NCBI GenBank assembly: GCA_020436225.1
Contig: JAGQYE010000034.1
Span: 1 to 55,009, forward strand
DNA from: Bacteroidota bacterium
Lineage (GTDB): Bacteria > Bacteroidota > Bacteroidia > Chitinophagales > JADIYW01
Length of the DNA: 55,009 nt
Direction: 5' to 3'
In this document: piece after piece, positions 30,959-33,780 of the stretch
Layout: each line of letters opens with the position of its first letter
Numbering within the stretch: position 1 is the stretch's first letter
The notes under the pieces: generated by a model
What the model was told of the DNA's origin: nothing
What the model saw: the letters and a program-made list of their open reading frames with translations, nothing else
The model's database searches: none
Translations under genes and position numbers: made by a program

Positions 30959-31894
30959 ATGAAAGTAACCGTAGTAGGTGCAGGCGCAGTTGGCTCAGCA
31001 GTTGCCGACAATATTGCACGTAAAGAACTTTGCCACGAAGTGGTTTTATTAGACATCAAAGAAGGTGTTGCAGAAGGAAAATCTATCGATATGATGCAAA
31101 CGGCAGCTATCTTAGATTTTGACACAAAAATTACAGGATCAACAAATGATTATAGCAAAACCGCAAACAGCGATGTAGTTGTAATTACATCGGGTTTACC
31201 AAGAAAACCGGGCATGACGCGCGAAGAATTAATTGGTGTAAATGCCGGCATCGTGAAAGGTGTTTCTGAAAATATATTGAAATATTCTCCAAATACAATT
31301 TTCGTTATCATTTCCAATCCAATGGATACGATGACGTATTTAGCATTGAAAGCAACAGGCATTCCTAAAAATAGAATTATTGGTATGGGTGGCGCTTTAG
31401 ATAGCTCTCGTTTTAGATATTATTTATCTCAAGCATTAGGTTGCTCTCCATCTCAAATAAATGCTGATGTAATTGGAGGTCATGGCGATACTACGATGAT
31501 TCCTTTAACACGCTTAGCTACATTAGGTTCTACGCCGGTTTCAGAATTATTAGATGCTGAAACATTAAACAAAGTAGCTGCAGATACTATGGTTGGTGGT
31601 GCAACACTTACAAAATTAATTGGTACTTCAGCTTGGTTTGCTCCGGGTGCTGCAGCAATGTCAATTGTTGAATCTATTTTACGTGATGAAAAACGTGTGA
31701 TTACTTGCAGTGTTTTCTTAGAAGGCGAATACGGTCAATCTGATATTTGTATGGGCGTTCCGGTTGTTATTGGCAAAAATGGTTGGGAAAAAATCATCGA
31801 CTATAAATTGAACGACGAAGAAAAAGCAGCATTTAGCAAAAGTGCCGATGCAGTACGCAACATGAATAATGTTTTAAGCACGCTTTCTATCTAA
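30959..31894 (+). CDS. mdh: Malate dehydrogenase (LDH-like, NAD-dependent)
   Basis: This TCA-cycle enzyme interconverts malate and oxaloacetate. The 311-residue chain is of the LDH-like type (MDH group III). The NAD-binding loop VGAGAVGSAVADNIA starts at residue 5. The substrate-binding loop is SGLPRKPGMTREEL. NPMDTMTYLALKATG is typical of bacterial Mdh, and IGGHGDTTMIPLTR holds the catalytic His. The protein is cytoplasmic. The gene is transcribed alone, with its own -7 element and a strong terminator. Confidence 0.96.
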   Translation: MKVTVVGAGAVGSAVADNIARKELCHEVVLLDIKEGVAEGKSIDMMQTAAILDFDTKITGSTNDYSKTANSDVVVITSGLPRKPGMTREELIGVNAGIVKGVSENILKYSPNTIFVIISNPMDTMTYLALKATGIPKNRIIGMGGALDSSRFRYYLSQALGCSPSQINADVIGGHGDTTMIPLTRLATLGSTPVSELLDAETLNKVAADTMVGGATLTKLIGTSAWFAPGAAAMSIVESILRDEKRVITCSVFLEGEYGQSDICMGVPVVIGKNGWEKIIDYKLNDEEKAAFSKSADAVRNMNNVLSTLSI

Positions 31895-31914: not shown

Positions 31915-31946
31915 AAAAGCAGTCATTTTTTTGACTGCTTTTTTTT
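31915..31946 (+). terminator. Intrinsic terminator of mdh
   Basis: AAAAGCAGTCA and TGACTGCTTTT form a perfect 11-bp stem around a T6 loop, with further T after it, 20 nt past the stop codon. Confidence 0.9.
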
Positions 31947-31993: not shown

Positions 31994-32698
31994 ATGAAAT
32001 TATCCAAATGGTGCTTGTTTTTATGCTTGTTAATGCTTGTTTTTTCTTCCTGTGAAAAGAGCGAAAATAATAGAGCTACGATTTCTTTTCAATTAATCTC
32101 TACAAATAAAACACCAATCGGAAGAAATTATTCCATCGACAACGACAAAACTAAACTCTTGTTTTCTAATTTCTTATTAACCGATGTTTCCGGAAATAAA
32201 ACACTATTGAAAGATGTGTTCTTATACAAAAAAAACAATACTGATTTTGAAGTGAAAATTCCGGAAGGTAATTATACAACGTTTCAATTTTCTTTTGGAT
32301 TAGATGCCATAACGAATAATGCTAATCCAATTAATTTTCCGGCATCACATCCGTTAAGTGTCGAGGAAGGTTTGTATTGGGATATGCTGAAATATCGTTT
32401 TGCCATCATAGAAGCAATGGTAGATAATTCGCCAGCAAAAAATCAAACGCCAAACACACCTATTTCTATGCATTTAGGCTCGGATACTTTATATACAGTC
32501 ATTTCATCTACAACGATTCCTAAAAATGGAATGAACTTGCAAATACAATTTAATTTAGATAGCCTTTTTGTGTTAGATGCTGAGCCTTTCCAAATTAGCA
32601 ATTTTAGCAACCATTCCGAAAGCGCTGAAATTGCTCGCACAATTACTATAAAAAACAGTTTTATAAATAGTCGAAAAATTTCCTTGATTTCTAATTGA
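31994..32698 (+). CDS. MbnP-like lipoprotein (possible copper-binding partner of the di-heme enzyme)
   Basis: The protein has 234 residues from the ATG at 31994. A longer frame from 31931 is rejected because it starts in the mdh terminator and precedes an intact lipoprotein signal (VFSSCEKS, lipid on Cys20). The mature domain resembles the MbnP-like family: IPEGNYTTFQFSFGLD followed by the hallmark SVEEGLYWDMLKYRFAIIEA. In methanotrophs, MbnP and the related CorA/MopE have a Trp converted to kynurenine that helps bind copper. Here Trp129, in the hallmark block, is the only Trp of the mature protein. The next gene encodes a MauG/MbnH-like di-heme enzyme and overlaps by one base, so the two are translationally coupled. 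Function is inferred from this pairing. Confidence 0.78.
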   Translation: MKLSKWCLFLCLLMLVFSSCEKSENNRATISFQLISTNKTPIGRNYSIDNDKTKLLFSNFLLTDVSGNKTLLKDVFLYKKNNTDFEVKIPEGNYTTFQFSFGLDAITNNANPINFPASHPLSVEEGLYWDMLKYRFAIIEAMVDNSPAKNQTPNTPISMHLGSDTLYTVISSTTIPKNGMNLQIQFNLDSLFVLDAEPFQISNFSNHSESAEIARTITIKNSFINSRKISLISN

Positions 32699-33780
32699 TG
32701 AACAAAAAAAATGCAATAATAGCTTTGGCAACAACTCTGTTTTTGTTGAGCATAATTCATGCATGTAAGAAAGAAGAAAATCCGCCGACAACAACACCAT
32801 ACACATTTCCTGAAATCCCCAATTTTAGAGCCATTCCAACAGATATTTCCAATCCAATAACAATAGAAGGCGTTGCACTCGGCAAAAAACTTTTCTTCGA
32901 CCCAATTCTTTCTTTAGATTCTTCCATTTCTTGTTCGAGTTGTCATCAGCCTCAATTTTCTTTCGCTGATAATAAAATAAAAAGCGAAGGAGTACATCAA
33001 GTATTGGGAAAACGAAATGCCATGGCATTGGTAAACTTAGCTTGGCAAAAAGATCGTTTTTTCTGGGATGGAAGAACAACCACATTACACGAACAAATTA
33101 CATTTCCGATTCAAGATCCGTTGGAAATGCAAAATACGTTGGATGAAGTAGAAAATCGTTTGCAAAAAAATCCGACTTATGTAGATTTATTTTGGAAAGC
33201 ATTTGGCACAAAAAACATTTCTATTGATTTAGTTGGTAAAGCCATCGAGCAATATGAAAAAACTTTGATTTCATATAATTCCAAGTTTGATAAATTTTCT
33301 CGTGGTGAGTTAATGTTGACTGATTCCGAACTTCGAGGATTAGAGATTTTCAAAACGGAAAAAGGCGATTGCTTTCACTGCCATAGCAGCACAGCGCCGG
33401 AAGTGTTTATTTCGCCGGATAGAACTTTCGCTAATAACGGAATGGATACAATTACGAATGTAATAGATTTTGCAGATTTTGGATTAGGAGATTTTACAAA
33501 CAATCTTTCCGATTACGGCCGTTTTAAAATTCCGACATTGCGCAACTTGGCTTTCACTGCTCCTTACATGCACGACGGGCGATTTGCCACCTTAGATGAA
33601 GTAATCGATTTTTATAATCAAGGACCAAAAGGCTCGCCAACCTTAGAGCCAATTATGCGCGAAAAAGCCGAAAAACGCTTGGAAACACTCGGTCATTGGG
33701 GCTTGAATCTTTCAGCCCAAGACAAAGCCGACTTAAAAGCATTTTTACTCACACTTTCCGATTCCAGTTTTGTTCAATAA
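32698..33780 (+). CDS. Di-heme cytochrome c peroxidase / MbnH-MauG family lipoprotein
   Basis: The 360-residue protein has a lipoprotein signal (IIHACKKE, Cys23) and two covalent heme sites, C79-S-S-C82-H83 and C225-F-H-C228-H229. The surrounding blocks (LGKKLFFDPILSLDSSISCSSCHQP, KRNAMALVNLAW, FWDGR, KIPTLRNLAFTAPYMHDGRFATLDEVIDFYN) are those of the bacterial cytochrome c peroxidase/MauG family. MbnH, a member, uses a bis-Fe(IV) state to oxidise a Trp of MbnP. Simple H2O2 reduction is the alternative. The ATG at 32698 shares its A with the TGA of the MbnP-like gene; the TTG at 32695 is less likely. Confidence 0.9.
   Translation: MNKKNAIIALATTLFLLSIIHACKKEENPPTTTPYTFPEIPNFRAIPTDISNPITIEGVALGKKLFFDPILSLDSSISCSSCHQPQFSFADNKIKSEGVHQVLGKRNAMALVNLAWQKDRFFWDGRTTTLHEQITFPIQDPLEMQNTLDEVENRLQKNPTYVDLFWKAFGTKNISIDLVGKAIEQYEKTLISYNSKFDKFSRGELMLTDSELRGLEIFKTEKGDCFHCHSSTAPEVFISPDRTFANNGMDTITNVIDFADFGLGDFTNNLSDYGRFKIPTLRNLAFTAPYMHDGRFATLDEVIDFYNQGPKGSPTLEPIMREKAEKRLETLGHWGLNLSAQDKADLKAFLLTLSDSSFVQ

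Follow-up and report, generated by a model that had tools for sequence, protein, structure and literature searches.

A WxM-type MbnP-MbnH lipoprotein pair in a Bacteroidota bacterium as a likely tryptophan-to-kynurenine copper system

Two overlapping genes on a 55,009-nucleotide stretch of Bacteroidota DNA, referred to here as the window, raise the question of whether a lipoprotein and a neighboring di-heme enzyme form a copper-handling pair in which a tryptophan is converted to kynurenine. The upstream ORF (31994..32698, +; ATG at 31994, TGA stop at 32696-32698) encodes a 234-aa MbnP-family lipoprotein with a WxM variant of the family motif, and the downstream ORF (32698..33780, +; ATG at 32698, stop ending at 33780) encodes a 360-aa di-heme lipoprotein of the MbnH/MauG type. 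The two share one strand and overlap by one base, in agreement with the positions and overlap given in an initial annotation of this DNA. The family assignment and pairing proposed there are likewise supported by matches to PF20243 and PF03150, by a predicted fold resembling 7L6G, and by the adjacency of an MbnH gene. The two genes are an MbnP-MbnH unit, ordinary as a pair.

The MbnP-like protein scored above the Pfam cut-off for MbnP (PF20243, E=3.7e-13, 50.2 bits where 27 are required) and below that of the NCBIfam equivalog model TIGR04052, MbnP_like_WxW (21.5 bits against 140). The WxW motif required by the latter is replaced in the window protein by W129-D-M131. These comparisons place the protein in the broad MbnP family rather than in the WxW equivalog. 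An AlphaFold2 model built with 62 relatives had a mean pLDDT of 93.2, and a Foldseek search with this model returned six significant matches, all of them chains of 7L6G, the MbnP of Methylosinus trichosporium. VIA-align matched the model to 7L6G with a Z score of 15.3 over 189 residues at 2.9 Å and 21% identity, the next entry having a Z score of 7.1. PDB sequence searches with the window protein alone or with a WxM profile gave no match, while searches with the canonical and with the combined MbnP profiles found 7L6G. MopE and CorA were absent from the profile and fold matches, an absence that does not exclude kinship.

The window protein shares with the MbnP of M. trichosporium OB3b (7L6G) the fold, the first motif Trp, a conserved His and an MbnH partner. 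It differs in having Met in place of the second motif Trp, in being shorter, in being a lipoprotein and in lacking methanobactin genes. With the canonical Bacteroidota MbnP, which carries G-M-[FY]-W-x-W-N-[ST]-G-Y-I-F and is the majority form in the order, it shares family, gene order, Trp129 and His160, and differs in being WxM where the canonical protein is WxW.

The partner matched Pfam CCP_MauG (PF03150) with 187 bits (E=3.5e-55). Its top NCBIfam model was TIGR04039 (MbnH), with 251.8 bits against a cut-off of 362.85, and it also remained below the cut-off of TIGR03791, the tryptophan tryptophylquinone enzyme MauG (176.5 against 443.85 bits). Its best PDB sequence match was OB3b MbnH, 6E1C (E=3.8e-49). 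As in that enzyme, it has two CxxCH sites, a Tyr at EVIDxY and an MbnP neighbor; unlike it, the partner is a lipoprotein and lies under the TIGR04039 cut-off. The organism's own genome holds one MbnP gene and three CCP_MauG genes. The two further MauG-type di-heme genes lie on contigs C125 and C100 (loci L076 and L077) and have no MbnP gene; one encodes a protein of 615 aa, and the other a protein of 386 aa, adjoining a small cytochrome c.

Conservation was counted over 171 MbnP-family ORFs taken from the hits of whole-genome searches for relatives, so the counts are not population frequencies; 139 of these ORFs are paired, defined as having an MbnH within ~400 bases downstream. The two CxxCH sites named in the initial annotation are present as C79SSCH83 (32932..32946, +), found in 139/139 partners, and C225FHCH229 (33370..33384, +), found in 137/139. 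Trp123 of FWDG (33064..33066, +) is kept in 109/139 partners, including 12/16 of those paired with WxM proteins; from its 20-residue spacing to Glu143 and the known features of the family, we take it to be the inter-heme Trp of MauG and bCcP. Tyr306 (33613..33615, +) aligns in profile alignments to 6E1C and 1IQC with the Tyr of the MbnH segment EVIDIY, where the classical bCcP 1IQC has Met, and it is Tyr in 132/139 partners. At the second heme, the axial position holds Tyr in place of Met, as is characteristic of the MbnH/MauG branch.

Both proteins begin with lipoprotein signals. The signal peptide and lipobox of the MbnP-like protein (LVFSSC20; 31994..32053, +) were assigned from sequence, with the Cys aligned in 122/139 pairs, and the partner's lipobox ends at C23. 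The mature N-terminus of the partner, CKKEE (32764-32778), resembles the signal by which some Bacteroidota export lipoproteins to the surface, and for this reason the MbnH-like enzyme may face outward.

The central residue is Trp129 (32378..32380, +), the predicted kynurenine precursor, which the initial annotation had singled out as the target and as the sole mature-chain Trp, within GLYWDMLKYRF. Both points hold, the other Trp being residue 6 of the signal peptide. In profile alignments Trp129 stands opposite the first Trp of GMAWNW in 7L6G, that is, the first W of its WxW motif. It is kept in 167/171 family ORFs and in 139/139 paired ones, so that the variation among paired homologues which might have spoken against the proposal was not seen. 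The four ORFs without Trp129 are unpaired or are one gene further upstream or tandem copies, and all of them lack His160 as well. They lie at L141 715-1557, L134 4-831, L145 2531-3331 and L174 1508-2191; in two cases the distance to an MbnH is one gene, and the stretches holding the other two contain no MbnH. These diverged copies look as if freed from MbnH action.

Two further positions are candidate copper-site residues, their roles being inferred from conservation. His160 (32471..32473, +), a predicted copper ligand, is His in 136/139 paired MbnPs. His207 (32612..32614, +), a candidate second ligand, lies where the alignment is poor; 66 of the 139 proteins have His and 42 have Met at this position, together 108/139. 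In OB3b MbnP, the first Trp of WxW is reportedly converted to kynurenine through MbnH (Manesis, 2021), and the copper site is said to consist of His, Met, solvent and kynurenine. The conservation of Trp, His, and His or Met would fit such a site. Met127, two residues before the Trp, was considered as the missing Met ligand; 99/139 proteins have Met there, whereas the window protein has Leu, so a Met at this position is not a required ligand.

A single mature Trp is not peculiar to the window protein: 7/16 paired WxM proteins have it, and none of the 110 WxW proteins does, since WxW needs two. The loss of the second WxW Trp had been overlooked in the initial annotation. Among the pairs, position 131 is Trp in 110 and Met in 16, a set that includes L002, the same contig as L064; some of the residues counted as neither are not true replacements and stem from the insertion of one residue (WxxW). 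Such a WxxW form, in which the second Trp is displaced by one position, occurs in a branch of family f18 (L143, L144, L145, L156 and L161). In the window, Met131 (32384..32386, +) takes the place of the second Trp and does not vary within the window's clade.

A tree of concatenated MbnP and MbnH sequences, a quick one with SH-aLRT support only and with the motif columns left out, requires at least four changes between WxW and WxM, four being forced by the starred branches. The separate WxM occurrences are in family f1, in family f4, in f19 and f22 jointly, and in the f8 protein L089, which has a WxW sister, L106. A long branch leads to the f4 pair, and the change counts are blind to gain versus loss. 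WxW is the majority form and is also present in the MbnPs of Deinococcus and Ideonella, and on these grounds the sequence distribution is most simply read as Trp having been replaced by Met repeatedly.

Substitution of Met131 for the second Trp could alter the metal site. In MopE, the Cu(I) site consists of Kyn130, His132 and His203 (PMC3423442), and in CorA of Kyn62, His64 and His114 (PMC3912023). The residue two positions after kynurenine is thus a copper-ligand His in both, which makes a kynurenine/His/His/Met site possible in a WxM protein, and by this analogy Met131 is a reasonable candidate ligand. The predicted likeness of the window pair to MopE and CorA with SACCP and CorB covers a Trp-derived kynurenine, Cu(I), a di-heme partner and a third side chain at Kyn+2. 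The difference is Met rather than His at that position, and the resemblance would be one of mechanism rather than of shown homology. We regard it as a tentative and somewhat doubtful proposition that WxM marks a distinct kynurenine copper site, built from Kyn129, His160, His207 and the Met131 thioether, that arose several times from WxW and converged on the Kyn-x-His layout of MopE and CorA. If it did, MbnH would be able to reach its target without the second WxW Trp. Possible roles of that Trp include electron relay, packing of the site and tuning of the copper. The WxM proteins are natural substitutions at this position with the remaining system intact, and sisters differing by one motif residue (WSMLKYQF and WSWLKYQF) permit a direct test. 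The WxM set would escape the annotation model TIGR04052. The recurrent WxM change is a candidate for a new, if modest, element.

Taken as a whole, the pair is best explained as a Trp-to-kynurenine copper system, a reading we consider likely, with the chemistry and the copper binding inferred. It is supported by the MbnP fold, by Trp129 in 139/139 and His160 in 136/139 pairs, by the adjacent MbnH with Tyr306, by the kynurenine copper sites of MopE and CorA, and by copper-gene contexts outside methanotrophs. Both proteins would be exported as lipoproteins, and MbnH, activated by peroxide or oxygen, would oxidize Trp129 to kynurenine via long-range electron removal. A single Cu(I) would then be held beside the kynurenine by His160 and probably by His207 of the modified MbnP, which could store copper or pass it on, either in the periplasm or on the cell surface. 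The Met131 thioether, two residues from the kynurenine, may join or tune this site. Against the copper pair count the lack of an adjacent copper gene, the 21.5 of 140 bits with TIGR04052, the lost second Trp, which could mean altered chemistry, and a position 207 that is poorly aligned and His or Met in only part of the pairs.

Some of these points would suit other explanations. The partner may be a plain di-heme cytochrome c peroxidase removing H2O2, with the lipoprotein serving only as electron donor or scaffold and Trp129 as a structural or electron-relay residue that is never modified. PF03150 is common to true peroxidases and no copper gene adjoins the pair, but Tyr306 occupies the position of the bCcP Met ligand, Trp129 and His160 are kept together and lost together, and the predicted fold matches 7L6G specifically, all of which make this explanation rather unlikely. 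MauG-type enzymes make other Trp products, such as tryptophan tryptophylquinone. With Met131 standing for the motif Trp, the product of MbnH action on Trp129 might differ here, for example N-formylkynurenine, hydroxy-Trp, a Trp-Met product or Met sulfoxide. Such an outcome has no precedent in the MbnP family, and the conservation of His160 and, for the most part, of His207 is what a metal site would lead one to expect; we judge it improbable.

It is also conceivable that the chemistry is the same and that the metal is not copper, or that no metal is bound in the cell. The family f1 WxM pairs, which have no copper genes beside them, would allow this; the characterized kynurenine sites of MopE and CorA bind Cu(I) (PMC3423442, PMC3912023), however, and MbnPH occurs with CopC and CopD in Deinococcus, and we consider it very unlikely.

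With respect to genomic context, most loci show the same gene order, MbnP lying directly upstream of MbnH, including every f1 locus uncut by a contig end. Of the genomes sampled, PF20243 was found in 334/396 from the window's order and in 97/395 from across the phylum. The pair, whose co-occurrence the initial annotation had proposed to survey, is already known to be widespread. Its description of the pair as lying outside the best-known setting is correct for the window, since a search across the genome found no MbnB homologue, and does not hold as a novelty: the family is common in the order, and conservation of the MbnP-MbnH pair far beyond methanobactin producers was stated in 2013 (PMC3621798). 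No copper gene was found beside the pair in the window, in close relatives or beside the f1 WxM pairs. The genome does encode candidates for copper use, namely two heme-copper oxidase subunits of the COX1 type.

Copper-linked contexts are found elsewhere. On a D. radiodurans plasmid (L186, 2878-6391), MbnP, a cytochrome-c peroxidase, a hypothetical gene, CopC and CopD lie in a row, a cluster that is a copper-linked MbnPH outside methanotrophs. MbnPH-like genes also occur in operons with ScoC, PcuAC and CopC (PMC9426467). The survey lends support to the idea that copper sites of the kynurenine type are frequent among Bacteroidota, in a setting remote from methane oxidation.

In seven members of the genus, the gene immediately before the pair is malate dehydrogenase (30959-31894 in the window), followed here by an intrinsic terminator (31915..31942, +). 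An operon with malate dehydrogenase was rejected because a terminator-like hairpin intervenes in 7/7 of these members. An AT-rich TAnnTTTA-like box precedes the mbnP ATG by a few bases in at least five of the seven and, given this box and the upstream hairpin, the two genes are probably transcribed on their own, with almost no leader. In family f21, MbnP genes occur in tandem arrays of two or three (L130 in G071, L131 in G082 and L132 in G035).
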